A stretch of DNA of 64,000 nt from Formosa agariphila KMM 3901. Lineage in GTDB: Bacteria; Bacteroidota; Bacteroidia; Flavobacteriales; Flavobacteriaceae. The notes beneath the pieces were generated by a model. It was not told the DNA's origin, searched no databases, and saw only the letters and a list, made by a program, of their open reading frames with translations. This document shows, in pieces, positions 6,233 to 64,000 of this stretch. Position 1 is the first letter of the stretch, and each line of letters opens with the position of its first letter. Position numbers and translations under genes: made by a program. The DNA lies in NCBI RefSeq assembly GCF_000723205.1, contig NZ_HG315671.1, positions 1,771,351-1,835,350 on the forward strand. The letters are read 5' to 3'.

Positions 6233-6295
6233 ATATCTAGACAGCAGGAAATCCGAATAAATTAGAATTGCAAGCATTCCTGAGAAAAGTGTCAT

Positions 6296-6303
6296 TATCT
6301 TTG
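6296..6303 (+). promoter_or_regulatory. TAnnTTTG -7 box before helicase gene
   Basis: TATCTTTG lies 14 bp before the helicase ATG at 6318. A TTG lies 25 nt upstream, slightly farther than usual, so the assignment is tentative. Confidence 0.35.
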
Positions 6304-6317
6304 CCGAAAATTACATT

Positions 6318-7703
6318 ATGTCAAAATCCTTTTCTGAATTAGGAATACAAGAAACTTTGTTACAAAGTTTAACCGATTTAAAGATTACTGTACCTACAGA
6401 TATCCAAACCAAAACCATTCCTTTAATTTTAAATGAAACTAAAGACCTAGTAGCTTTAGCGAAAACAGGAACAGGGAAAACCGCAGCTTTCGGACTGCCT
6501 TTACTTCAGCTTATTAATACAAAAGAAGAATCTATTCAAGCGTTAATCTTAGCGCCTACACGTGAATTAGGTCAGCAGATATTTTCAAATTTAACAGATT
6601 TGGCAGCTTATAATCCTGAAATTTCTATCGCTTCAGTATGCGGAGGAATTCCTATAAAACCTCAAATAGAGCGATTAAAAACGGCCACACAAATCGTTAT
6701 TGCAACTCCTGGTCGTTTAGTCGATTTGGTAAATCGTAACGCCATAGATATAAAATCCATTTCATATTTCATTTTAGATGAAGCCGATGAAATGGTAAGT
6801 GCACTTAAAGAGGATTTGGACCATATTATTAAAGAAATTCCGAAATCACGTCGTACGTTATTATTCACTGCGACTATGCCTGGAACCATAAAGCAACTCA
6901 TTCAGAATTATATGTCTAAACATGTGGTTCAGGTAGAAGCAGATATGGAAACGGTTGGTCATCAAGGTATCGACCACCAATATATTGTGGTAGAGCCTAT
7001 CGAGAAACTAGAGGTTTTATTACATTTCTTAAAATCTAAAGAAGGACAACGCGGTATTATTTTCTGTAAAACAAAAGCAGCAGTAAATAAATTAGCTAAG
7101 AACTTGGCAATTAATAAATTTTCATCTGGAGCCATTCATGGGAGTTTAACACAAGGGATTCGCGACCGTGTGATGGGACAATTTAGAGAAGGGTATATCG
7201 ATCTTTTAGTTGCAACGGATTTAGCAGCACGAGGAATTGATGTAAAAGATGTCGCATTCGTTATTAATTATCATTTACCAGATGTTTACGATACCTATGT
7301 ACACCGTAGCGGAAGAACGGCTAGAGCAGGAGCAAAGGGATTGTCGTTAACGATAATTCAGGAAGAAGAAGTACAAGATATAGCTGATTTTGAAAATGAA
7401 TTAGGGATCACATTTTCAGAATTAAAGAAAGCGGACGAACAAACAATTGAAGAAAACAATGCCTTAATTTGGGCGAATAAGATCTTTAAAACAAAGCCGA
7501 ATCGTGAGGTGTCTGAAACGTTTAGAAATAAAATTCACACCACATTTCATCATTTAACTAAAGATGAATTGGTCGATAAAATATTGGCGCAATACATTAC
7601 CGAACATACAGCAGTAGTTCCAAAACAAGTGACTTCTAAAAAGAAAAAAATAAATAGTTGCAATGGCAAACATATTAAAAGCACAGCAGGATATTTTAAA
7701 TAA
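6318..7703 (+). CDS. DEAD-box ATP-dependent RNA helicase
   Basis: This 461-residue protein carries the helicase motifs in order: motif I AKTGTGKT (48-55), PTRELGQQ, TPGRLVD, motif II DEAD (154-157), motif III TAT (184-186), and motif VI HRSGRTAR (329-336). It should unwind RNA duplexes in ribosome assembly or mRNA turnover. The last 17 residues after SKKKK look unrelated to the family and overlap the next gene by 41 bp. One A fewer in the A7 run at 7644-7650 would end the protein right after SKKKK. The tail may therefore come from a homopolymer length change or error. Confidence 0.95.
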   Translation: MSKSFSELGIQETLLQSLTDLKITVPTDIQTKTIPLILNETKDLVALAKTGTGKTAAFGLPLLQLINTKEESIQALILAPTRELGQQIFSNLTDLAAYNPEISIASVCGGIPIKPQIERLKTATQIVIATPGRLVDLVNRNAIDIKSISYFILDEADEMVSALKEDLDHIIKEIPKSRRTLLFTATMPGTIKQLIQNYMSKHVVQVEADMETVGHQGIDHQYIVVEPIEKLEVLLHFLKSKEGQRGIIFCKTKAAVNKLAKNLAINKFSSGAIHGSLTQGIRDRVMGQFREGYIDLLVATDLAARGIDVKDVAFVINYHLPDVYDTYVHRSGRTARAGAKGLSLTIIQEEEVQDIADFENELGITFSELKKADEQTIEENNALIWANKIFKTKPNREVSETFRNKIHTTFHHLTKDELVDKILAQYITEHTAVVPKQVTSKKKKINSCNGKHIKSTAGYFK

Positions 7704-13116: not shown

Positions 13117-14256
13117 TTATTGAAGTTGGCTTACATCTGTCCAATTGTTATTTTCTCTAATTAAATCGATAAGTTGTTGGTATAGACTTCCTTCTTTAAA
13201 GGATTGATAATACGTAAAATCTTCTCCTTTAATATCTTTAGTGAACTCTCTTGCTAAGTATTGCCAATTGCGTTCTGTATCGCCTTCCACTTTGGGTTGA
13301 TCATCTATTATTGCTTGAGGTAAAGGCAATGCTTTCCATGTTTTATCAGCGTCCCAAATATAAAGTGGTCCCATGCCATAATGTCCCTTAATATAAATAG
13401 CGCCTTTAGTGCCGTAAAACACTATGTGATCTTCATTAAACCTAGGGTTAAGTCCACCGTGTTTAAATAACACAGAAACTGGTTTTGTTGCAAAAGCACT
13501 TTCTAGTTTAGCCATTACGGTATACGACCATTCTACATTACTTTCTCCCCATTTTAAATTCGGGTCGTTTAGGTCTTTAGGAATGTGGTCTCTTCTGGTT
13601 TTAAAATTGTGTACACCTTCAACAATTGGAGCTTTTCCAAGGTCGTCGCGTACTTCCCCGATTAATTGTAAGATGTTTTCTCCAATTACAGAGGTTGCAA
13701 TAGACATCATATGGGTAAAATTGTTGTTTAAACGTCCGCCACCATCTTCTTTTCTATGCGACCAACCAAAAGGAATTTCACGTTCTAGATTAAAATGAGA
13801 TATAAATTCGGCTTCAGTAGGTTCGCCAATTGCTCCTTCTGCAACTAATTGTTTTGCATGTATAATACATGGCATATAACGGAAACTTGATGCAAATGCT
13901 GTTTTTACATTTTTTTGTATGGCAAGGTTGTATAATGTTTTGGCTGAATCGCCGTCTATAGTTAAAGGTTTATCGCTAAAAACATGACAACCAAATTCAA
14001 TAGCTTGTATTATGGTGTCGTAGTGTGCTCCTCCAGGCGTAGCAATGGATACAATATCTGGTTGACAATCGTTTAGAGCTTGTTTCCAATCTGTACCGTA
14101 GTAGGGGATATCCATTTTCTTAGCGACTTGTTTTACAACGCTTGGTGTTCTCCCAACAATTCCTACAACTTCGGCACCCACAGCTCGAAAGGCATCAGTG
14201 TGGCCTTGTCCAGCAAATCCGGTACCAGAGACTAAAACTTTTAATGTATTACTCAT
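13117..14256 (-). CDS. Gfo/Idh/MocA family oxidoreductase
   Basis: This 379-residue enzyme starts with a Rossmann fold (SGTGFAGQGHTDAFRA, residues 10-25) and has the DKPLTIDG motif, a variant of the EKP catalytic motif. The C-terminal alpha/beta domain contains GGGRLNNNFTHM. Such enzymes oxidise or reduce sugars and sugar acids with NAD(P). As the first gene of the operon with the SSS symporter and manD it probably feeds a uronate or polyol into the mannonate pathway. The exact substrate is not known. Confidence 0.9.
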   Translation of the reverse strand: MSNTLKVLVSGTGFAGQGHTDAFRAVGAEVVGIVGRTPSVVKQVAKKMDIPYYGTDWKQALNDCQPDIVSIATPGGAHYDTIIQAIEFGCHVFSDKPLTIDGDSAKTLYNLAIQKNVKTAFASSFRYMPCIIHAKQLVAEGAIGEPTEAEFISHFNLEREIPFGWSHRKEDGGGRLNNNFTHMMSIATSVIGENILQLIGEVRDDLGKAPIVEGVHNFKTRRDHIPKDLNDPNLKWGESNVEWSYTVMAKLESAFATKPVSVLFKHGGLNPRFNEDHIVFYGTKGAIYIKGHYGMGPLYIWDADKTWKALPLPQAIIDDQPKVEGDTERNWQYLAREFTKDIKGEDFTYYQSFKEGSLYQQLIDLIRENNNWTDVSQLQ

Positions 14257-14556
14257 ATGTTTAGTTGATGTTAATTAGCAAATTTGTTATTATCATTAAA
14301 AAAATCGGTTAAAATTTTTTAAATCTTATAAAGTGTTAATTTAAGAAAAAACAATCTGGTAAACCAATTTTATAGGTTAACATTCTAAATGATTTTCAGA
14401 GTGGAATTCTTGTTTTTTTAATCACCTATATGACACGCAATGCAACATGGTTTTTAGTGATAAAGTCTAATTTTTTTAATAGAAAAGATTGAGAATCTGG
14501 ATGATTTGTGTGATAGTCTATCCAAATTACTATTTTTACTTTAAATACATTCAAGT
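14257..14556. other. intergenic region between divergent operons
   Basis: This 300-bp region separates the minus-strand uronate operon from the plus-strand BCCT gene. It must hold promoters for both, but I see no clear operator, repeat or small gene. Confidence 0.5.
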
Positions 14557-54922: not shown

Positions 54923-57465
54923 GTCACTTTAACACCTTCAAAAAATTAAACTTTTCTTGGCTTTTTAAAATGGCTTGGCGCGATGCCAAAGCGAGTAAAG
55001 TCCGTTTATTACTTTTTATGGCGTCCATTATTTTGGGGATTGCCGCAGTAGTTTCAATTCAACTGTTCAGCTCTAATTTAAAAGATAATTTACAAAGTCA
55101 GTCTAAAGTTTTAATGGGCGCCGATTATATTATCGATTCCAAACAAGAACCCACGGCTCGTGCACAAGCGATAATTGATTCTTTACAACCAGACGCTTCC
55201 GAAGTTAATTTTGTGTCTATGATTGCGTTCCCCAAAAATGGCGGTACAAAATTAGTAAAGGTTCAAGGTCTTGAAGGAGGCTTTCCATTTTACGGTAGTA
55301 TAGAAACTACGCCTGCTTCGGCAGCTACAGATTATCAGCGTTCTGGTGGTGCTTTAGTAGATGCCACCTTAATGTTGCAGTTTGATGCTAAACCAGGTGA
55401 TTCTGTAAAAATTGGAGAGCTAACCTTACCTATTGTTGGGGCTTTAAAATCTATGCCCGGAAATTCTGCCGTGTCGAGTTCTGTTGCGCCACCAGTGGTT
55501 ATTCCGCGGCGGTTTGTCGATGCCACAGCACTGTTGCAGTTTGGTAGTCGTAAAGAATTTCAGTATTTCTTTAAAGCTTCCGATACGTTAAATTTAAAAC
55601 GATTAGAAACCGATTTAGAACCTAAATTAGAATTCGAAAAAGCCGACTTAGACACGCACACCAGCACGTCTAAACGTTTGGGTAGACGCTACGACAATGT
55701 TGGGAAGTTTCTAAATCTAGCCGCCTTTATAGCCTTATTGCTAGGGTGTATTGGTATTGCGAGCTCGGTACATATTTATATTAAAGAAAAATTAAAAGCC
55801 ATAGCCGTGCTAAAATGTATGGGCGCCTCTAGACTTCAAAGTTTCCTGATTTTCCTGATTCAAATTGCAGGAATCGGAATTTTAGGCGGTGCCATAGGAG
55901 CGTTAATAGGTGTAGGTCTTCAACTCATATTTCCATACCTCTTACAAGAGTTTTTACCATTTACTTTAGACATTTCTATTTCAGCACAACCGCTTTTTAT
56001 AGGCGTGTTACTCGGGTTATTCATGTCGGTTTTATTCGCCCTTTTACCATTACTTCGTACGTGGTATGTTTCGCCTTTAGAGGTGTTACGGGTCAATGAA
56101 GACGGAATCCAAGAACCTAAGTCCGTACGCTTTTTACTTTTTGGAGCCATTTTAGTTTTCCTATTTTTATTCTCGTTTTGGTTAATTAAAGATGCTAAAT
56201 ATGCCTTGTTTTTTGTGGGCGCTACAGTCATAACCTTTACATTATTGGCATTGGTAGCTTTAGGGTTTATAAAGACCATTAAACGTTATTTTCCAAAACA
56301 TTGGAGCTTTACAGCCCGACAGAGTTTATTAAATTTATTCAGACCCAACAATCAAACCGTGGTTTTAGTGGTAGCTATTGGGTTAGGAACGTTTTTAATA
56401 AGCACCTTGTATTTTACCAAAGCTGTATTATTAGCTAAAACAGAAGTCGGTCAGCATACCGAAGACGCTAATATTATTATTTTAGATGTACAGCCGGAGC
56501 AGCGCGAAGCCGTATCGCAGCGTATTATGTCTAAGAATTTACCCGTATTAAGTAATATTCCGTTAGTTACTATGCGTATGCAACAAATTAATGGAGATTT
56601 GGTAAACACCATTCGCCAAGATAGTACACGACAAATTCGCAGATGGGTGTTAAATCATGAGTTTAGAACCACGTATCGCGATACGTTAATCGATTCAGAA
56701 CACATAATAGCAGGCGAGTGGATACCCGAATTACAAGCGGGCGACCCGATACAAATTTCAATTTCAGATAATCTCGCAGAAGATGCCAAATTAAGTGTAG
56801 GCGATTCGGTAGTGTTTAATGTGCAAGGGGTACTTATGGAAACTACGGTAGGAAGTATACGGGAAGTCGATTGGTCTCAGGTACAACTTAATTTTACTGT
56901 GGTGTTTCCAAAAGGCGTGTTAGAAGATGCCCCGCAATTTAATGTGTTAACCACCATAGTAAAAGATGAAAGCAGTTCGGCAGCCCTACAACAAGATTTG
57001 GTAAAACGTTTTCCAAACGTGTCTATTATAGACTTAAGACAAGTGTTTAGCTTGGTAGAATCGATTTTAGAGAAAGTGTCTTGGGTGATTAATTTTATGG
57101 CGTTCTTCAGCATTTTTACTGGAATAATAGTTTTAATTGGTTCGATTAGAACCAGTAAATATCAACGGATAAAAGAGCAAGTGTTGTTACGTACACTAGG
57201 AGCCAAAAACAAACAAATCTTACAAATTTCTGCTTTTGAATATCTCTTCTTAGGCCTTTTAGGAAGTTTGGTTGGTGTACTATTGGCTTTAATAGCAAGT
57301 TTATGTTTAGCTGTATTTGTGTTTAAAGAAGCCTTTATACCCTCAGGAATTCCGTTTTTTGTTATTTTACCTGGCATTACTCTATTGGTACTTGGTATTG
57401 GATTAAGTAATATTCAATCGGTGTTACAACGATCCCCGTTAGAAGTCTTGCGAAAAGAAGGTTAA
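54919..57465 (+). CDS. ybbP: ABC transporter permease, YbbP type
   Basis: This 848-residue permease has the FtsX-type layout with ten membrane helices: one N-terminal, a periplasmic domain, three helices, two central helices, a second periplasmic domain and three C-terminal helices (TGIIVLIGSIRTSKYQRIKE before the last pair). The start is a TTG that overlaps the ybbA stop; an alternative is the ATG at 54970 (MAWRDAKASK). Together with YbbA and TesA it probably handles lipids or hydrophobic compounds. Confidence 0.92.
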   Translation: MSHFNTFKKLNFSWLFKMAWRDAKASKVRLLLFMASIILGIAAVVSIQLFSSNLKDNLQSQSKVLMGADYIIDSKQEPTARAQAIIDSLQPDASEVNFVSMIAFPKNGGTKLVKVQGLEGGFPFYGSIETTPASAATDYQRSGGALVDATLMLQFDAKPGDSVKIGELTLPIVGALKSMPGNSAVSSSVAPPVVIPRRFVDATALLQFGSRKEFQYFFKASDTLNLKRLETDLEPKLEFEKADLDTHTSTSKRLGRRYDNVGKFLNLAAFIALLLGCIGIASSVHIYIKEKLKAIAVLKCMGASRLQSFLIFLIQIAGIGILGGAIGALIGVGLQLIFPYLLQEFLPFTLDISISAQPLFIGVLLGLFMSVLFALLPLLRTWYVSPLEVLRVNEDGIQEPKSVRFLLFGAILVFLFLFSFWLIKDAKYALFFVGATVITFTLLALVALGFIKTIKRYFPKHWSFTARQSLLNLFRPNNQTVVLVVAIGLGTFLISTLYFTKAVLLAKTEVGQHTEDANIIILDVQPEQREAVSQRIMSKNLPVLSNIPLVTMRMQQINGDLVNTIRQDSTRQIRRWVLNHEFRTTYRDTLIDSEHIIAGEWIPELQAGDPIQISISDNLAEDAKLSVGDSVVFNVQGVLMETTVGSIREVDWSQVQLNFTVVFPKGVLEDAPQFNVLTTIVKDESSSAALQQDLVKRFPNVSIIDLRQVFSLVESILEKVSWVINFMAFFSIFTGIIVLIGSIRTSKYQRIKEQVLLRTLGAKNKQILQISAFEYLFLGLLGSLVGVLLALIASLCLAVFVFKEAFIPSGIPFFVILPGITLLVLGIGLSNIQSVLQRSPLEVLRKEG

Positions 57466-57818
57466 GGCTTGTGTACACGTCTTGATATAACTTAAAACAC
57501 ATCATATATTTTACCCCTTACAATCCAGATTCTAGAATTTAATTTACAGCTCTAAAATCTGGATTCTTTTTTTGAAATCCCACCGATTCCCATCGGAAAT
57601 TTGAGTCCGATTATAATTCAACCGCATGTTTTTATAGGATATTAAGAATTTTAATGTGTAAAAACCAACAATCTAGTGCTTACGCAGTAAGACTACTATT
57701 ATACGCTTTTTAGAACTCATTTTATATTTTAGTAATGCGTACATAAAAAACGTATCGTATTTGTGCACTATATATCTTATATTTGAGTATATAAGCACTT
57801 ATGTGATATATACAAACG
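57466..57818. other. intergenic region before the cassette array
   Basis: This 353-bp stretch holds the ybbP terminator and then AT-rich DNA without a supported gene. A weak inverted repeat TATATATC / GATATATA precedes the first cassette boundary. No integrase gene or clear attI site is visible. Confidence 0.5.
57520..57575 (+). terminator. terminator after ybbP
   Basis: AATCCAGATT at 57522-57531 pairs with AATCTGGATT at 57556-57565 and is followed by a T-run. Confidence 0.75.
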
Positions 57819-57840
57819 TTGTACAACATTTGACCAAACA

Positions 57841-58473
57841 ATGAAAATCACAGTTTTAACGATATTGTTTTTAGTTTTTTTAAGTTGCAAAAATGCGACT
57901 GAAAAGGGAACTGAACAAACCCAAATCGTTGTTGATTCGACTGGATTAAAAATAGAAAAAGCTGAAAAGCCGACCGAAAACTCAAAACTGATTTCCTTTC
58001 TTGAAAACCCAATTGACTTACAGAAATTCAAGTCAAAGAATAACGGAAATGTAACAACGAGTGTAAATAACGGATTGAAATATCAATATCATCCTGCAAT
58101 CAATGATTCAATATTTTATGGTTACAATTTTATAACTGACAGCATTGGACCAAAAGGAATAAACGAAATTGTAGTTTTTAAATACGGAGAAAACAAACAT
58201 AGATTTGAAGACGAAACTGAAATTCTAATAGAAATGAGGATTTTTAATAAAGATTCGGATTTGGGAAAAGCAAATCTAATCGGACTTTCTAAAAAGGAAT
58301 TGGAATCTGAATTCGGAAATCACTATCTGACTTTCGACAATGGAATTGCTTACTCGAATAAAAATAAAGTGTTGATACTTGAACTTGAAAACTCAAAAAT
58401 CAAATCTTATAATTATATAAAATTAAGTACTGAAAAAATCGATATTGATTTAATCAGAAAAATAGCGGAATAA
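57841..58473 (+). CDS. hypothetical lipoprotein, cassette 1
   Basis: This 210-residue protein has a lipoprotein signal (VFLSCKN) and no recognised domain. Residues 45-200 are mixed alpha/beta, with NEIVVFKYGENKHRFEDE in the middle. It lies between a GTTGTAC box at 57818 and its complement at 58483, which mark it as a cassette gene. Lys and Asn content is high, as in the other cassette genes. The function is unknown. Confidence 0.7.
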   Translation: MKITVLTILFLVFLSCKNATEKGTEQTQIVVDSTGLKIEKAEKPTENSKLISFLENPIDLQKFKSKNNGNVTTSVNNGLKYQYHPAINDSIFYGYNFITDSIGPKGINEIVVFKYGENKHRFEDETEILIEMRIFNKDSDLGKANLIGLSKKELESEFGNHYLTFDNGIAYSNKNKVLILELENSKIKSYNYIKLSTEKIDIDLIRKIAE

Positions 58474-58482
58474 AAAAACGTT

Positions 58483-58614
58483 GTACAACAACGTATAAAA
58501 ATAATTGCTATTTTGTGCTTAAATAAAGGTAGTTGCGTATTTGCTACATCTGAATTTCCTTCGGAAATTCCTCGCACGCAAACACGCAACTATTCTTATA
58601 CAAAACCGTTAGGC
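58483..58614 (+). repeat. attC-like site A (132 bp)
   Basis: The site runs from GTACAAC to GTTAGGC. The outer arms TATAAAAATAATTGC and GCAACTATTCTTATA pair with mismatches, leaving 4 nt unpaired on the left and 7 on the right. Inner arms near 58531 and 58583 pair over 13 of 14 bases, and a perfect 8-bp hairpin GAATTTCC / GGAAATTC (58552-58570) forms the tip. Confidence 0.75.
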
Positions 58615-58637
58615 ATAATTTAAAAAACACGAACTAA

Positions 58638-59690
58638 ATGACAATAGACTGGAGTCGAATTTCACCTGATAGATTTGAACAATTATGTACTGATATAATA
58701 AGAAGTGAAGGCTTTTACAACATCCGTAGAATGGGAGGTTCTGGAGATAGAGGTCGAGATATTATAGCTCAAAAACAAACGCAATTATTTTTCGGCTCGA
58801 AAGAAACCCAAAATTGGATAGTTCAATGTAAAAGATTAGTAAAAACAAACCTCTCAATAGATGATTTGAGTTCTGAATTGAACAAAGTTAGAATGCATCA
58901 GATAGATTATTATTTGGTAATCTTATCAAATACTTTGAAGCCAAATCTAGTTGACTGGATTGACGGAATAAGCAAAGATTATCCATTCAAAATAATAATT
59001 AATGATATCGATTGGCTTGAAAGTCAATTAAAAAGAGAGCCAAGTCTTTATAAACATTACTTCGAAAATGATGATAGAAACGAGCAAATCTATTCGTTAA
59101 AAAACTCAACTGATTTACAAATCTATACCGCAGGAAAAATGCCGAGTATTGCACTGAGAGGACAAATCACAAAGTGGCGTAATGATTTAGAAATAAGTTC
59201 TTCAAAGCTCAAAAACAAAATTGGCTTTTACCATCCAGAGTTTGCTGGTTGCGACCACACAGGAATTTATTTATCCGAAACTGTACAATCTGATTTTAGA
59301 ATGATATCTCAATCGAACCTTCTGATTGCCTATTTAGAAGATAATGAACAATTTGGTACAATTTCAGAGATTATGATAGCGTATTCAATGAACAAACAAA
59401 TAGCAATATTCATTGACGAGAAAATCAAGAAAGAAATTACAGTTCCTGAATTAGAAAGTGAACACTCAGTAAATCCAGAATATTACGAACAGGTTTATGA
59501 AAAAGTATTTAAAACGAATCACTCGTGTCCTTGCGACTTGATGAATGAATTACAACCCATTCATTTAAATGAATATTGGTTTATGATAGAATTTTTAAGG
59601 TTAAGACAACCAGACACATTTATCAAAATGACCAATTCTGAAAATTTAAACAAGGACATTATTGGATATTTAAAAGAATTTGAAAAATAA
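58638..59690 (+). CDS. Mrr-like nuclease fused to nucleoside deoxyribosyltransferase-like domain
   Basis: This 350-residue protein has two parts. Residues 8-135 look like a PD-(D/E)xK restriction-type nuclease: E14 (RFEQLC), GGSGDRGRD with D41, and VQCKR with Q63 and K65. Residues 160-262 look like the nucleoside 2-deoxyribosyltransferase family: IYTAGKMPS at the start, then DFRMISQSNLLIAYL and FGTISEIMIAYSMNKQIAIFI, where E244 is at the place of the catalytic Glu. The two together suggest nucleic acid recognition coupled to nucleotide or NAD cleavage, as in some anti-phage effectors (inference). It is a single-gene cassette flanked by GTTAGGC boxes. Confidence 0.75.
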   Translation: MTIDWSRISPDRFEQLCTDIIRSEGFYNIRRMGGSGDRGRDIIAQKQTQLFFGSKETQNWIVQCKRLVKTNLSIDDLSSELNKVRMHQIDYYLVILSNTLKPNLVDWIDGISKDYPFKIIINDIDWLESQLKREPSLYKHYFENDDRNEQIYSLKNSTDLQIYTAGKMPSIALRGQITKWRNDLEISSSKLKNKIGFYHPEFAGCDHTGIYLSETVQSDFRMISQSNLLIAYLEDNEQFGTISEIMIAYSMNKQIAIFIDEKIKKEITVPELESEHSVNPEYYEQVYEKVFKTNHSCPCDLMNELQPIHLNEYWFMIEFLRLRQPDTFIKMTNSENLNKDIIGYLKEFEK

Positions 59691-59698
59691 AAACTATG

Positions 59699-59832
59699 CC
59701 TAACAACATATATAATTTATTGCTAGTTCTAGCCTACTTACGAAAATCCTCGCGGATTTTCTTGGTTTGTGTTTTATTTACTAAATTCAGTGCTTAAAAC
59801 ACGCAACAAACCATATATAAACACGTTGTGTG
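59699..59832 (+). repeat. attC-like site B (134 bp)
   Basis: The site runs from GCCTAAC to GTTGTGT. Arms ATATATAATTTATTGC and GCAACAAACCATATAT pair with few mismatches, leaving 3 nt unpaired on the left and 6 on the right. A perfect 8-bp hairpin GAAAATCC / GGATTTTC with loop TCGC (59743-59762) lies inside. Confidence 0.75.
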
Positions 59833-59853
59833 TAAGCTGGAAGAACTGTACAA

Positions 59854-60375
59854 ATGAGAGTAATCTTAGAAACAAATCGACTTTTATTAAGAGAATTTAA
59901 TCTTCATGATGCTGAAAACTTTTATAACCTAAACCGAAATCCAAACGTCATAAAATATACTGGAAATTCTGCCTTCAAAAGTATTGAAGAAGCAAAAATA
60001 TTTCTAGAAAATTACCAAGACTACAAATTAAATGGATATGGAAGATGGGCTGTAATAAATAAAGAAAATAATAATTTTATCGGTTGGTGCGGACTGAAAT
60101 TAGGAGAAATAGAAAATGAAACTGATATCGGATTTCGATTTTTTGAAAAAGTTTGGAATAAAGGCTATGCGACAGAAAGTGCTAAAGCTTGCTTACATTA
60201 TGGATTTGAAAAACTAAATCTGACACGAATTATTGGAAGAGCAATGAATGAAAATATTGGTTCAATTAAAGTTTTGGAAAAAATTGGACTTGAATTTGAG
60301 CAAAACACAAACTTTCAAGGACAAGATGCCGTAATATATAAAATCGAAAAAAAGCCTACACACAACAATGTATAA
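59854..60375 (+). CDS. GNAT N-acetyltransferase (RimJ/RimL type), cassette 3
   Basis: This 173-residue protein has the GNAT pattern: LETNRLLLREFNLHDAENFY at the start, a central FIGWCGLKLGEIENETDIGF and the acetyl-CoA segment KVWNKGYATESAKACLHYGF. It should acetylate a small molecule or protein amino group; the substrate is unknown. The last residues THNNV and the stop lie within the following attC-like site, whose ACACAAC box starts at 60360. GNAT genes are frequent cassette cargo. Confidence 0.9.
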   Translation: MRVILETNRLLLREFNLHDAENFYNLNRNPNVIKYTGNSAFKSIEEAKIFLENYQDYKLNGYGRWAVINKENNNFIGWCGLKLGEIENETDIGFRFFEKVWNKGYATESAKACLHYGFEKLNLTRIIGRAMNENIGSIKVLEKIGLEFEQNTNFQGQDAVIYKIEKKPTHNNV

Positions 60376-60493
60376 CCGCAATTACGGCGGATTCGACTAC
60401 GTCCGAATCCACTCGGAATTGCTAACGTCAGTGCTAAACCGAAAATAATCGCTAATTTAACCCGTAACTGACGGTTATACGAGACCGTTGTGT
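60360..60493 (+). repeat. attC-like site C (134 bp)
   Basis: The site runs from ACACAAC to GTTGTGT. The arms GTATAACCG and CGGTTATAC pair perfectly and extend further with mismatches, leaving AAT unpaired on the left and GAGACC on the right. The inner hairpin GGATTCG / CGAATCC (60389-60410) lies at one side of the tip. The site overlaps the end of the acetyltransferase gene. Confidence 0.8.
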
Positions 60494-60598
60494 GTAATTA
60501 CCACTCAAACCAAAAAGTATCCAATATTTGAAAATCCGTATAAGAAGTTAAGACTACTTCTACTCGACCTTTGTCTTATAATTTTAATCTTTAAAAAT

Positions 60599-61558
60599 AT
60601 GGACAAAATGAATACAAACCAATTTGGGAATAAAGGTTGGACACCTGATAGAATCGGAAACTTAAAAGGCAAAATATATGTCCTAACAGGAACTACAAGC
60701 GGAACAGGATTTGAAGCAGCGAAAATATTGCTATCAAAAGGAGCAAAAGTTGTAATGCTTAATAGAAACCCAAAGAAAGCAGAAGACACCATTAAAACTT
60801 TAAAGCAAGAACTTGGAAATCATATAAACGTTGTAGCTATAAAAATGGATTTGGCTGTACAAGATTCAGTAAAAAAAGCAGCAGAAGAAGTTATAAAAAC
60901 AGTACCACAAATTGATGCACTTATCTGTAATGCAGCAATTGCCCAAGTACCTAAACAGACGCTAACTACAGATGGTTGGGAAAGTCAAATGGGAACGAAT
61001 TATTATGGAAATTTTACGCTTCAAGCATTATTGTTCCCACTTATTGAAAAATCCAAAGGTCGAATTGTAACAGTAGGAAGTTTGGGATATGATATGGGAA
61101 TTAAAACCATCAAATTTGATGATTTGAATTGGGATAAAGATTACACGCCTAATAATGCATATAGTCAAAGTAAACTGGCGCAGATACTGTCTATGTACGA
61201 ATTACAAGATAGATTAAAAGAAGCTGGGAAAACAGATGTTAAAGCTTACGCTTGTCATCCTGGTTCTTCAAGAACCAACTTAATAAATTCAAGTGGTAGT
61301 TTTATGATGAAATTCATCTTTAATCTAATGAAATTATCACCATTAACACAATCAGCTGAAAAAGGTGCTTACCCACAATTGATGTGTGCTACAGAACCTA
61401 ATTTAGACCAAAGTAGTTTTTATGGTCCAACGGGAAGAAATAATTGGACTGGTCCTGTTGGAGCACATAAATTAGAATCACACGCAAAAGATAAGGTCGT
61501 ATCAAATAAATTATGGGAACTTTCGGAGAAAGAAACAGGTATAAAATGGAATATATAA
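60599..61558 (+). CDS. SDR family oxidoreductase, cassette 4
   Basis: This 319-residue protein has the SDR motifs LTGTTSGTGFEAAKIL, CNAAIA, the Ser region TVGSLGYD and the catalytic pair in NAYSQSKLAQ. The layout resembles light-dependent protochlorophyllide reductase and retinol dehydrogenase-like SDRs. An upstream in-frame TTG starts inside the attC box, so the ATG at 60599 is preferred; MDKMN offers a second ATG at 60608. The next gene, an AraC-type regulator, starts 10 bp after it, so the two form an operon in one cassette. Confidence 0.9.
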   Translation: MDKMNTNQFGNKGWTPDRIGNLKGKIYVLTGTTSGTGFEAAKILLSKGAKVVMLNRNPKKAEDTIKTLKQELGNHINVVAIKMDLAVQDSVKKAAEEVIKTVPQIDALICNAAIAQVPKQTLTTDGWESQMGTNYYGNFTLQALLFPLIEKSKGRIVTVGSLGYDMGIKTIKFDDLNWDKDYTPNNAYSQSKLAQILSMYELQDRLKEAGKTDVKAYACHPGSSRTNLINSSGSFMMKFIFNLMKLSPLTQSAEKGAYPQLMCATEPNLDQSSFYGPTGRNNWTGPVGAHKLESHAKDKVVSNKLWELSEKETGIKWNI

Positions 61559-61567
61559 ATTTGTATA

Positions 61568-62479
61568 ATGGAGCACTTTAAAACATTATCTACTTATCTA
61601 GATTATTTAGAACTACCGAGGCCTGAACATCCAATGTTGAGTGTTTTCAACTCAAAAGGCGATGGTTATTTACCTTGTCCGAAAGAAAGTTCGCCACCAA
61701 TTACAAACGATTGCTATTCCATCAGCTTAAAGAAATTTGTAAAAGGTAACTTAAACTACGGACGAACAAAATATGATTTTACCAATGGAGCTTTAATTTT
61801 CATTGCGCCAAGACAAATTCTACAATGGGATAGTAGCGTGTTTTTTGAGCGAAAAGGCTTTTCAATAAACTTTCACGAAGATTTTTTGAAAGGAACAGAT
61901 TTAGCACAACAAATAAAAAGATATGGTTTCTTTTCCTATTCAGTAAATGAAGCATTACATCTTTCGCCAAAAGAAGAAAAGCAAATAGAATTGATAGTTG
62001 AAAATATTGAAATAGAATATCAGAACAACCAAGATGAGTTTAGCAAAGAAATTATCATTTCTCAATTAGGCACGTTATTCAAATATGCCAATCGTTTCTA
62101 TGAAAGACAGTTTTTGAATAGAAAAGAATTATCAAATAACTTGTTGGAACGATTTAATCTACAATTGTCTGAATATTTTGAATTAGGAAAGCTACAAGAA
62201 AAAGGTATTCCGAGTATAGAACGAATAGCAAATAAAATGTCCGTTTCTCAACGTTATTTAAGTGATACACTAAAAAAAGAAACAGGAAAAACGACTACCG
62301 AACATTTACACTTGCGTTTAATCGATGAAGCAAAGAATATTTTATTAAAACCTAATAAAAGTATTTCGGAAGTAGCTTATGAGTTGGGATTTGAATATCC
62401 GCAATATTTTTCAAGATTATTTAAAAAGAAAGAAGGTATAAGTCCAACGGAATACAGAGAAAAATATAAACTAAACTAA
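61568..62479 (+). CDS. AraC-family regulator, cassette 4
   Basis: This 303-residue protein has an N-terminal cupin-like sensor domain and a C-terminal AraC helix-turn-helix pair. The first has SIERIANKMSVSQRYLSDTL, and the second SISEVAYELGFEYPQYFSRL with KKKEGISPTEYRE. It lies between the SDR gene and a membrane protein gene (1 bp to the latter), so it likely controls this cassette operon, perhaps in response to the SDR substrate (inference). Confidence 0.92.
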   Translation: MEHFKTLSTYLDYLELPRPEHPMLSVFNSKGDGYLPCPKESSPPITNDCYSISLKKFVKGNLNYGRTKYDFTNGALIFIAPRQILQWDSSVFFERKGFSINFHEDFLKGTDLAQQIKRYGFFSYSVNEALHLSPKEEKQIELIVENIEIEYQNNQDEFSKEIIISQLGTLFKYANRFYERQFLNRKELSNNLLERFNLQLSEYFELGKLQEKGIPSIERIANKMSVSQRYLSDTLKKETGKTTTEHLHLRLIDEAKNILLKPNKSISEVAYELGFEYPQYFSRLFKKKEGISPTEYREKYKLN

Positions 62480-62480
62480 A

Positions 62481-62996
62481 ATGGAACTATTAAAATTAGC
62501 CATAGAGTGGGCAAAAGCTGAAGTATTCTCAACACGTTTCTTCATCTTTTTTGCAATTTTATTTTTAATCGCAAGTGTTGGATTTTGGCAGTTGGGAAAA
62601 ACGGATTTAGCAAAGGCTTATATCATTCCAACTTTAGTCGCAGGCATATTACTTTTGATAATTGGTAGCGGTCTTAATTACACAAACATTCAAAGAGTTA
62701 ATCAATTTGAAAAGGATTTTAATTCTGATGTATCTACTTTTTACCAATCTGAAATTGAACGTTCAGAAAGCACTTTAAAGGAATATTCAGTTGTATTTAA
62801 AGTAATTCCATTTTTAATAATCATAGCGGCATTATTAATTCTGTTTGTTAATACACCAACTTGGAGAGCAATTAGTATTACAACCATTGCAATGCTAATA
62901 GTCATTTTATTAGTTGACGGAACTGCACACTCAAGAATAGAAAGCTACCACAAAGAATTGAAGTTAGTGGATATTCACAATGAAATTAAAAAATAA
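62481..62996 (+). CDS. hypothetical four-helix membrane protein, cassette 4
   Basis: This 171-residue protein has four hydrophobic helices: FFIFFAILFLIASVGFW, AYIIPTLVAGILLLIIG, VIPFLIIIAALLILFV and AISITTIAMLIVILLV. A polar loop lies between the second and third. No family is recognised. It starts 1 bp after the AraC gene, so it is co-translated with it. The cassette ends shortly after its stop. Confidence 0.7.
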   Translation: MELLKLAIEWAKAEVFSTRFFIFFAILFLIASVGFWQLGKTDLAKAYIIPTLVAGILLLIIGSGLNYTNIQRVNQFEKDFNSDVSTFYQSEIERSESTLKEYSVVFKVIPFLIIIAALLILFVNTPTWRAISITTIAMLIVILLVDGTAHSRIESYHKELKLVDIHNEIKK

Positions 62997-63000
62997 CTAC

Positions 63001-63132
63001 ACACAACAATGTGTATAAGCAATAGCGGTTTGAGTGTTAACTCGAACCGTTTTTCCGTATAATTTAAGTATATTTCAATCCGAAAAGTAGTCGCTTAAAA
63101 TCCGCTGCTGCTCATACACGAGACCGTTAGCA
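63001..63132 (+). repeat. attC-like site D (132 bp)
   Basis: The site runs from ACACAAC to GTTAGCA. The arms GTGTATAAGCAATAGC and GCTGCTGCTCATACAC pair with mismatches and the same AAT/GAGACC asymmetry as site C. The inner hairpin CGGTTTGAGT / ACTCGAACCG (63026-63049) has one G-U pair and loop GTTA. Confidence 0.8.
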
Positions 63133-63168
63133 ATAATTAAACGAGCAACTTCAAACAGAACCATCTAA

Positions 63169-63612
63169 ATGAAAGAATTTAAGAAATTGAATATTATTAT
63201 ATCGATTTTATTCATAGGATTATCACTATCGTGTACTGATAAAAGTCAAACGAACGAAAACCAAGAGAATATATTATGGAATTTGGAAGAAGAATATATA
63301 AAAGCTCATAAAGATGCTGACCACTCAAAAATCTTATCAATGTGGGACGAAAATTTTCTAGGTTGGCCTAGTCGTTTAGAAAATTCTGCGCAAAAGAATT
63401 CTGGTTCGGATTATTTGGAAAAATACTTTTCGAAACCAATGCCAACAGAAACAAAATTCCGAATTGAAAAACAAGGAATTCATATTGAAAATAATATTGC
63501 AATTCTACATTACCGCTTTCTTCTATTTGAAAGTAGCACCAGAATAACACACACGTGGATAAAAAGAGGAAATAAATGGTATATCCTTGGAGGAATGGAT
63601 TGGAATGAATAA
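63169..63612 (+). CDS. NTF2-like (SnoaL/DUF4440-type) lipoprotein, cassette 5
   Basis: This 147-residue protein has a lipoprotein signal (LSLSCTD) and an NTF2-like fold pattern: WNLEEEYIKAHKDADHSKIL with MWDENFLGWPS at the start and ITHTWIKRGNKWYILGGMDW at the end. Members bind small ligands or have varied enzyme roles. It is preceded by a GTTAGCA box and followed by the complementary TGCTAAC box at 63631, after which the IS110-family sequence begins. Confidence 0.8.
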   Translation: MKEFKKLNIIISILFIGLSLSCTDKSQTNENQENILWNLEEEYIKAHKDADHSKILSMWDENFLGWPSRLENSAQKNSGSDYLEKYFSKPMPTETKFRIEKQGIHIENNIAILHYRFLLFESSTRITHTWIKRGNKWYILGGMDWNE

Positions 63613-63630
63613 ACCGAATTAAAAAACTAT

Positions 63631-63637
63631 TGCTAAC
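63631..63637 (+). repeat. interrupted attC-like half-site
   Basis: TGCTAAC followed by AA is the expected first box of the attC-like site of cassette 5. The rest of the site is replaced by IS110-family sequence, so the second half is outside the window or lost. Confidence 0.65.
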
Positions 63638-63670
63638 AAAGTACTGTGGTAAAAAACAAGTAAAAAAGCA

Positions 63671-64000
63671 TTAACTTTTCACTAAAGTACTTCGATAAGA
63701 ATCATCATATATTAAACCAGATTTTGCGATAGCAAAAGCCTGTTTTAGAAGCTTATTACACACAGCTATTAAAGCTAGTTTTTTACTCTTCCCTTTTGCT
63801 ACAATTCGTTCATAAATATCTCTGCATGCTTTGTTGTATTTACAGGCATTAAAACTGCACATAAATAATAAATTACGAAGCTTTTGATTTCCTATTTTAC
63901 TTATTCTACTACGTCCATTTACACTGCTACCACTCTTTCTAACTACAGGAGTTAATCCAGCATAACTGCAGAGTTCACTACCGCTTGTAAAACGCTCAAA
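63671..64000 (-). CDS. IS110-family transposase, C-terminal part (partial)
   Basis: This frame is open to the window edge and encodes the last 109 residues of a transposase on the minus strand. The Transposase_20 signature is seen: SELCSYAGLTPVVRKSGSSV, then NGRSRISKIGNQKLRNLLFM. The DEDD catalytic N-terminus would lie beyond 64000. Its stop is only about 35 bp from the cassette half-site, so the element's end lies in 63640-63670. The IS110 family has no long inverted repeats, so the exact edge cannot be set. Confidence 0.9.
   Translation of the reverse strand, partial: FERFTSGSELCSYAGLTPVVRKSGSSVNGRSRISKIGNQKLRNLLFMCSFNACKYNKACRDIYERIVAKGKSKKLALIAVCNKLLKQAFAIAKSGLIYDDSYRSTLVKS

Follow-up and report, generated by a model that had tools for sequence, protein, structure and literature searches.

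The integrase of an integron is defined, in the passage cited here, as a member of the IntI family that carries an IntI-specific domain near patch III (PMC9668308); attC sites are quoted at 57-141 bp, with an R box of 7 bp (PMC5371416), and the parts of two papers that deal with strand use describe recombination in integrons on the bottom strand (PMC4792948, PMC5454043). Bacteroidota stand among the integron-bearing phyla in the cited sections of reviews (PMC8618304, PMC9668308), and intI genes had already been listed for the Bacteroidetes/Chlorobi group (PMC2426708); the cited part of the IntegronFinder 2.0 paper reports a single complete integron, that of Salinibacter ruber, from Bacteroidetes proper, and lone integrases only in an earlier survey (PMC9024848). 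We describe here an array of integron-like gene cassettes in the flavobacterium Formosa agariphila KMM 3901, found in a stretch of 64,000 nucleotides ("the window"; G000:C1:1771351-1835350 of a genome of 4.23 Mb in one contig). Our search of the open-licence PMC literature (titles and abstract starts of the papers listed, with subscription journals and preprints outside its scope) found no description of such arrays.

The array comprises five units on the plus strand (57818-63637). A GTTnnnn box begins each unit, the exact reverse complement of that box ends it (5/5), and neighbouring units are joined by hairpin sites, four in all, with lengths of 132, 134, 134 and 132 bp. A first-pass annotation, made from the sequence letters, had described these units and lengths correctly, had called the hairpins asymmetric and had proposed an integron-like cassette array without an integrase. 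Its statement that the box changes from unit to unit holds in so far as there are four different boxes (in order, GTTGTAC, GTTAGGC, GTTGTGT, GTTGTGT and GTTAGCA), with units 3 and 4 carrying the same one. The integron-like character itself is now strongly supported by the complementarity of the boxes, by covariation in the hairpins, by copies bounded at G^TT and by a recombinase linked to such sites in relatives. From sequence comparison we consider it very probable that the array belongs to an integron-like cassette platform of Bacteroidia, and that the window locus is a satellite array headed by an attI-like site and served in trans by a recombinase encoded about 219 kb away.

Unit ends, hairpin structure and copied cassettes

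A covariance model built from seven sites, four of them the window's (model R1), finds 29 sites in the source genome at E < 1e-3, in five regions and two single places. At E <= 0.01 it gives 267 matches in 42 loci, namely 34 loci around close homologues of the recombinase described below and the arrays of the source genome itself. From 265 of the 267 matches (19 sites lack AAC or GTT where expected) we took 208 units lying between consecutive sites, and compared the six variable box bases at the start of each unit with those at its end. All six agree in 168 of the 208 units and five of the six in a further 14; with permuted ends 3.6 of 208 are expected at 6/6, and the top permuted mean is 2.54 against 5.45 observed, bearing out the earlier remark that the pattern lies beyond chance. 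The two halves of one site, R'' and R', agree near chance (mean about 2.5; permuted 2.2). Complementarity of the unit ends is longer than had been noted, extending past the box to a total of about 10 nt, almost never including position 11 (0.01), and then continuing for 3 nt more. In the loci of more divergent recombinases 55 of 61 units agree at 5/6 or better. A search for chains of units made independently of the model over 84 loci returned chains of 26, 16, 10, 8 and 7; chains of five or fewer carry no evidential weight, because the shuffled null reaches 4 in seven loci and 5 in one.

The hairpins have one layout, in which AAC/GTT is followed by unpaired bases (about 3 nt in the left arm and 6 in the right, much as first described) and then by stems of 6 and 4 bp. 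In an alignment of the best 150 of the 267 sites (147 distinct), which was fitted to this structure and so favours it, the three named helices are paired in 98.3% of cells, against 87.2% after shuffling. Double-change cells number 183 (49.9 after shuffling), and the covariation score is 0.274 (0.078 shuffled; 0 of 500 shuffles as high). Sliding the partner by 1-3 columns gives a covariation score of at most 0.074. Strand preference was evaluated on 166 units that agree at 5 or 6 of the 6 bases and whose site does not exceed about 160 nt. In 152 of them position 11 reads A in the unit start and C in the unit end, making an A.C mismatch in the top-strand hairpin and a G.T wobble in the bottom-strand hairpin. 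The bottom strand is the more stable one in 164 of the 166 units when folded as in the circle form (mean -28.0 vs -23.7 kcal/mol) and in 152 of 166 in the integrated form, a folding bias that fits the bottom-strand recombination of integrons and suggests the same strand use here.

Units also recur as copies: in 13 pairs of cassettes, identity is 80% or more across 85% or more of the length. Two pairs of single cassettes are 100% identical end to end, with both boundaries at G^TT (637 and 555 bp), and identity in their 60-nt flanks is 0.48/0.37 and 0.53/0.37, respectively; five of the 13 pairs have at least one whole flank in common (blocks of several cassettes), and six are copies at 89-99%. 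Unit 5 of the window is found in another genus (G184) at 97% identity, which begins exactly at GTT, the left side being unrelated. A gene 89% identical to that of unit 3 (window 59832-60373) is present in the genome G155 (locus L285), where identity stops 7 nt inside the site and where a second model of the sites (R2, introduced below) finds no site behind the gene. Stretches of window site 3 are up to 99% identical in other genera. The first-pass annotation had looked to gain or loss of units at GTT from strain to strain, and to the absence of a match with a known repeat family; copies do occur within arrays and between genera, and an Rfam search of the window gave zero matches. These comparisons support a cut at G^TT, the copying of cassettes as units and the former joining of their two ends in a circle.

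Hairpins up to 99% identical stand behind different genes, and the variable box beside them is mostly different. Among 225 array sites, 588 pairs have hairpins at least 93% alike, and in 578 of these an ungapped comparison finds different gene bodies; that count is too high, as it takes in bodies with small insertions (at least one pair, in L112). Only 2 of the 40 best pairs agree at all six box bases, and the variable box therefore appears to travel mostly with the gene rather than with the hairpin; hairpin and gene would then act largely as separate modules in cassette genesis.

We surveyed the open reading frames (ORFs) of 176 cassettes of up to 2 kb (from 199), counting ATG starts alone on the array strand and any start on the other. 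The longest ORF lies on the array strand in 123 of the 176 (123 of the 145 with an ORF), and cassette ORFs start at a median of 25 nt past the cut. We scanned 97 of these 123 ORFs (some copies and the shortest omitted). Their matches are spread over 65 Pfam families, with at most 3 members each, and over 56 PADLOC models, certain of them overlapping in a single protein.

A tyrosine recombinase linked to the sites

The best match to an integron integrase model in the source genome, under the curated cut-off, is at G000:C1 1608641-1609435, in the gene of a 376-aa tyrosine recombinase (1608638-1609768) about 219 kb from the window array. Its residues R235, K260, H324, R327, H350 and Y359, which we take to be catalytic, are invariant (22/22). 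Behind the gene, on the same strand, come an AT-rich inverted repeat and then a second array with the same type of box (GTTGTAA/TTACAAC, GTTACCA/TGGTAAC, GTTGCCACCA/TGGTGGCAAC and GTTGTACATA/TATGTACAAC). The stretch from the recombinase stop codon to the first cassette (about 1608.6 kb) is 86% identical over 56 nt (85.7%; E 2.9e-11) to window 57768-57822, at the start of unit 1, and we annotate 57768-57817 (plus strand) as an attI-like site at the head of the window array. Further copies stand ahead of sites in L078 and L079, in L079 ahead of one single site. By its anatomy the inverted repeat is a putative insertion site, or attI, at about 8668-8557 of L009 (minus strand). The view that no intI lies to the left of the window array stands, as we traced no recombinase directly upstream (window 57301-57900; the best tblastn match, at E 0.054, was rejected). 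The term integrase-less is correct for the window but misleading for the genome, which encodes a likely recombinase some 219 kb off, next to an attI and an array belonging to it; a copy of the same attI heads the window array. As a side observation, L009 has two genes in one unit (6260-7290, minus strand), the intervening site being without its left half; the outer boxes of this fused cassette (GTTGCCACCA/TGGTGGCAAC) agree across 10 nt.

Our samples are referred to as family, class and phylum (Flavobacteriaceae, Bacteroidia and Bacteroidota, as judged from the named records). A search with the recombinase over 299 family genomes gave 56 matches at E <= 1e-120 in 50 genomes (counted by hand). 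The source genome apart, these close homologues are 52-75% identical, and are followed by partial copies and remoter homologues, mostly below 50%. In named records, hosts of close homologues among the matches listed include Winogradskyella ursingii, Seonamhaeicola aphaedonensis and a Saprospiraceae metagenome-assembled genome. We took 34 loci of this close group, L009 included, mostly with 1-4 kb upstream (10 kb in L009) and up to 17 kb downstream. In them every one of the 236 sites (236/236) shares the strand of the recombinase gene and is downstream of it, although the absence of sites upstream says little, since little upstream DNA was taken. Sites are present in 29 of the 34 loci, with up to 26 sites in 17 kb (L089), and the remaining five have less than 1 kb of contig left. 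In these five (L099, L100, L102, L108 and L109, from draft genomes) the contig stops less than 1 kb past the recombinase gene, as expected if repeated sites break assemblies. A box matching the R'' of the first site is present in 29 of 29 loci, 39-107 nt past the stop codon in 23 of them.

A fairer test used even flanks of up to 10 kb on each side of 80 named loci among the matches listed, and all 38 of the 38 R1 matches (E <= 0.05) again fall downstream on the same strand; they lie in 12 loci, in nine of which the homologue is merely 35-49% identical. We also took 20 loci of divergent homologues (35-47% identity), chosen after nearby sites had already been seen in some of these genomes, and found sites in 17. 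Of these sites, 72 share the strand of the recombinase and are downstream of it, 10 (in three loci) are on the opposite strand and upstream, and 1 is upstream on the same strand; the three loci that lack sites have 0.2-1 kb of contig left downstream. Sites stand behind remoter recombinases too in Algibacter onchidii and two Flavobacterium species. In the three divergent loci L233, L236 and L245 the recombinase is preceded by the array, which is on the opposite strand. An array upstream, on the strand opposite to the recombinase, is the usual arrangement in integrons, with exceptions.

Relation to integrons and rival explanations

The locus resembles the sedentary chromosomal integrons of Vibrio and Xanthomonas in its mostly co-oriented cassettes, the little DNA upstream of each gene and the large arrays, in the G^TT cut (AAC on the bottom strand), and in an attI near the recombinase gene. 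Attributes of integrons that we find are an attC-like hairpin with R and L boxes, an unpaired spacer and a more stable bottom strand; cassettes bounded at G^TT with ends complementary through a circle; and a dedicated, linked recombinase, the last in relatives and not in the window itself. It differs from them in several respects. The recombinase scores 199.7 bits with TIGR02249 against a cut-off of 265, matches the integrase profile at profile positions 7-179 and 239-314 only, has 24 residues where IntI4 (2a3v) has 67 and so lacks the IntI-specific segment, and carries about 105 extra N-terminal residues. In our tree its close clade (100/100) is separate from the 14 canonical IntI rows (also a 100/100 clade), other recombinases lie between the two, and many of the deep forks are open. 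Among curated models NF040815 scores best (227 bits, cut-off 220; 'site-specific tyrosine recombinase/integron integrase'), and the best PDB matches of the catalytic part are XerC-like and XerA. The R complementarity spans some 14 nt, position 11 being a fixed A/C, against a 7-bp R box in integrons. Of 246 sites, 13 fit RYYYAAC and 13 fit GTTRRRY, which we take to be the R-box consensus, while the AAC/GTT core is conserved. Some arrays are headed by an attI and have no recombinase, and the recombinase is usually transcribed toward the cassettes, the opposite of the usual arrangement. The system is integron-like by its anatomy, yet by its sequence it fails formal membership of the IntI family.

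Each unit would accordingly be a mobile cassette, its gene beginning about 25 nt past the cut and closed by an attC-like hairpin. The 376-aa recombinase may act in trans, binding the folded bottom strand of attC, excising cassettes by attC x attC recombination and inserting them at attI. That site would lie directly downstream of the recombinase gene, with a copy heading the window array, whose cargo is accessory genes (a restriction-like nuclease, an acetyltransferase, a regulator and unknown proteins). Beyond this, we rather favour a second integron lineage in Bacteroidia, separately evolved or ancestral. Its recombinase would have been without the IntI-specific domain (regarded as an adaptation to folded single-stranded attC) from the outset and would act in trans on several attI-headed arrays; its sites would have a 14-nt box pairing unbroken only on the bottom strand through the fixed G.T/A.C position, and a hairpin module would be common to different genes across genera. 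In the tree 17 of the 72 inner branches are open, and the clade may be ancestral to IntI or convergent.

Several observations weigh against this account. In 6 of the 29 close-group loci the first site is found 0.9-3.8 kb from the recombinase, and in three of the 17 divergent loci the array is on the other side and strand, with one further site upstream. Sixteen of the 208 units agree at 2 or fewer of the 6 bases; many of them are long, and a missed site or an insertion is a likely cause. Among the surveyed cassettes, 22 of 176 have their longest ORF on the opposite strand, and 31 lack an ORF of 60 aa. Recombination is deduced from comparison throughout, and action in trans on the window array from the shared attI and type of site, in a genome that has other tyrosine recombinases too (11 matched stretches, Xer-like proteins among them).

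A more conventional reading is that the array is a cluster of attC sites lacking integron-integrases (CALIN), that is, cassettes of canonical integrons left behind without IntI, in a genome that once had them or receives them from an IntI-bearing one. The anatomy is attC-like (AAC/GTT core, asymmetric spacer, L stem), the lengths of 132-134 bp fall inside the 57-141 bp quoted for attC in the cited text (PMC5371416), and with its four sites less than 4 kb apart, no recombinase and no trace of one just upstream, the window has the form of a CALIN, its sites being identified with our own models. We nevertheless consider this reading very improbable. GTTRRRY is fitted by 13 of the 246 sites only, and the failure of the R box in the other 233, together with a recombinase outside the IntI clade, argues that the array is not simply a CALIN of ordinary integrons. 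It differs from a CALIN also in being headed by an attI and having a likely recombinase on the same chromosome, and sites follow their own recombinase in 29 of the 34 loci. The distribution of the sites points the same way. A second model built from 150 sites (R2; at most 11 candidates scored per genome in the family survey) finds sites at E <= 1e-5 in 261 of 299 family genomes and 212 of 236 genera, and in 35 of 198 genomes sampled from the class (a single match in 21 of those 35). Canonical IntI is above the cut-off in 1 of the 198 class genomes, and R2 is without a match at E <= 1e-5 in eight genomes with canonical IntI (two weaker matches). In a sample of 296 genomes from the phylum, canonical IntI is above the cut-off in 84, one marked as the same class; the close recombinase group (E <= 1e-90) is in 5 of 395 phylum-sampled genomes, all in the same family. 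As a control, R2 was applied at E <= 0.01 to 12 genomes from other phyla, several of them presumably rich in G+C, and found sites in none.

The units might instead be moved by the host XerC/XerD, as in Xer-dependent mobile elements, rather than by the linked recombinase. The source genome has Xer-like proteins, and the catalytic part of the linked recombinase is itself Xer-like by its best curated model and structural matches. Its clade (100/100) is apart from the two Xer rows used in the tree, it has an N-terminal addition, and the same-strand, downstream linkage (236/236 and 38/38) and the inverted repeat right behind the gene would have no obvious reason if Xer proteins did the work; we judge this very improbable. 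Hardly credible is a non-integron family of repeats (MITE-like or REP-like hairpins) lying between genes, with units apparent by chance. Hairpins are indeed numerous, and near-identical ones stand behind different genes (the 578 of 588 pairs, ungapped, given above), but the start box predicts the end box of a unit, gene and hairpin are duplicated together as whole units from G^TT to G^TT, the sites are clustered, co-oriented and linked to a recombinase, and the window has no Rfam match.

Most of the flavobacterial genomes that we sampled have similar sites, and a broad path for the shuffling of genes may thus have gone unnoticed. If the cassette platform is real, it would be a major system of gene exchange in common environmental bacteria; its large arrays carry accessory genes, and some of these match models for known or candidate phage-defence proteins. 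It would also be a natural test of cassette formation, since hairpin and gene are separable almost to the base. The cited part of PMC4792948 asks whether the recombination of folded single strands requires the I2/IntI-specific domain, and the recombinase described here would offer a natural test of this question.

Features of the window array and its surroundings

To the left of the array are tesA-, ybbA- and ybbP-like genes (names from the earlier annotation; Pfam gives GDSL lipase and FtsX/MacB domains in two). Unit 1 (57818-58489, box GTTGTAC/GTACAAC) has an ORF of 210 aa at 57841-58473 that lacks a Pfam match, and is followed by attC-like site 1 (58483-58614, 132 bp, 121.8 bits with R1). 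Unit 2 (58608-59704, GTTAGGC/GCCTAAC) encodes a protein with an Mrr-type restriction endonuclease domain (58638-59690; PADLOC PDC-M58A), followed by site 2 (59698-59831, 134 bp, 124.5 bits), and unit 3 (59825-60366, GTTGTGT/ACACAAC) a GNAT acetyltransferase (59854-60375), followed by site 3 (60360-60493, 134 bp, 115.4 bits). Unit 4 (60487-63007, GTTGTGT/ACACAAC) has three ORFs, for an SDR oxidoreductase (60590-61558), an AraC regulator (61568-62479) and a membrane-like protein (62481-62996), and ends at site 4 (63001-63132, 132 bp, 105.2 bits). Unit 5 (63126-63637, GTTAGCA/TGCTAAC) encodes a DUF4440 protein (63169-63612). All of these units and sites are on the plus strand, and the four sites scored are founding members of the model.

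The tesA-ybbA-ybbP place was compared with that in another genome of the genus (G014), in which ybbP is 82% identical. A 20-kb stretch around that ybbP has zero sites, and the genes downstream of the window array were not found in it; the window array is, by this comparison, not shared with G014 at this place, and a clean empty site could not be drawn. The same genome has no match to the close clade of the recombinase (best E 4.4e-60), and elsewhere, at a different place (L252, G014:C1:2220001-2240000), it has 23 sites in 20 kb on one strand.

Site 5 (left end 63631-63639, plus strand) is broken off two bases past AAC by an IS110-family insertion (63640-64000, minus strand), whose transposase (63671-64000; PF02371, 1.8e-15) runs on to L010 13992. 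The site resumes beyond the window (right half at L010, about 14215-14337) and is followed by a sixth unit (L010 14331-16548), which opens with GTTGGCA, closes with GCATAAC and contains an insertion that we take to be of IS3 type, suggesting a composite or deleted cassette. Among the window ORFs scanned and the ORF of unit 6, PADLOC matches are to unit 2 and to unit 6, outside the window (a NucC-like nuclease).

The same IS110-family end stands directly after AAC in 8 of 8 places (L010 12987 and 16542; L009 6263 and 3963; L077 2553; L078 12487 and 3029; L079 5966) in the own-genome array stretches searched, the whole-genome search pattern itself having contained AAC. At L010 16542 the AAC beside this end disagrees with the opening box of its unit. 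In the cited passage, IS1111-attC elements are described as IS110-type elements that target attC (PMC11187229). The insertion in site 5 resembles them in having an IS110-family transposase within a hairpin site, with both halves of the site flanking it and the break two bases past AAC, and differs in that the host and the sites are flavobacterial.

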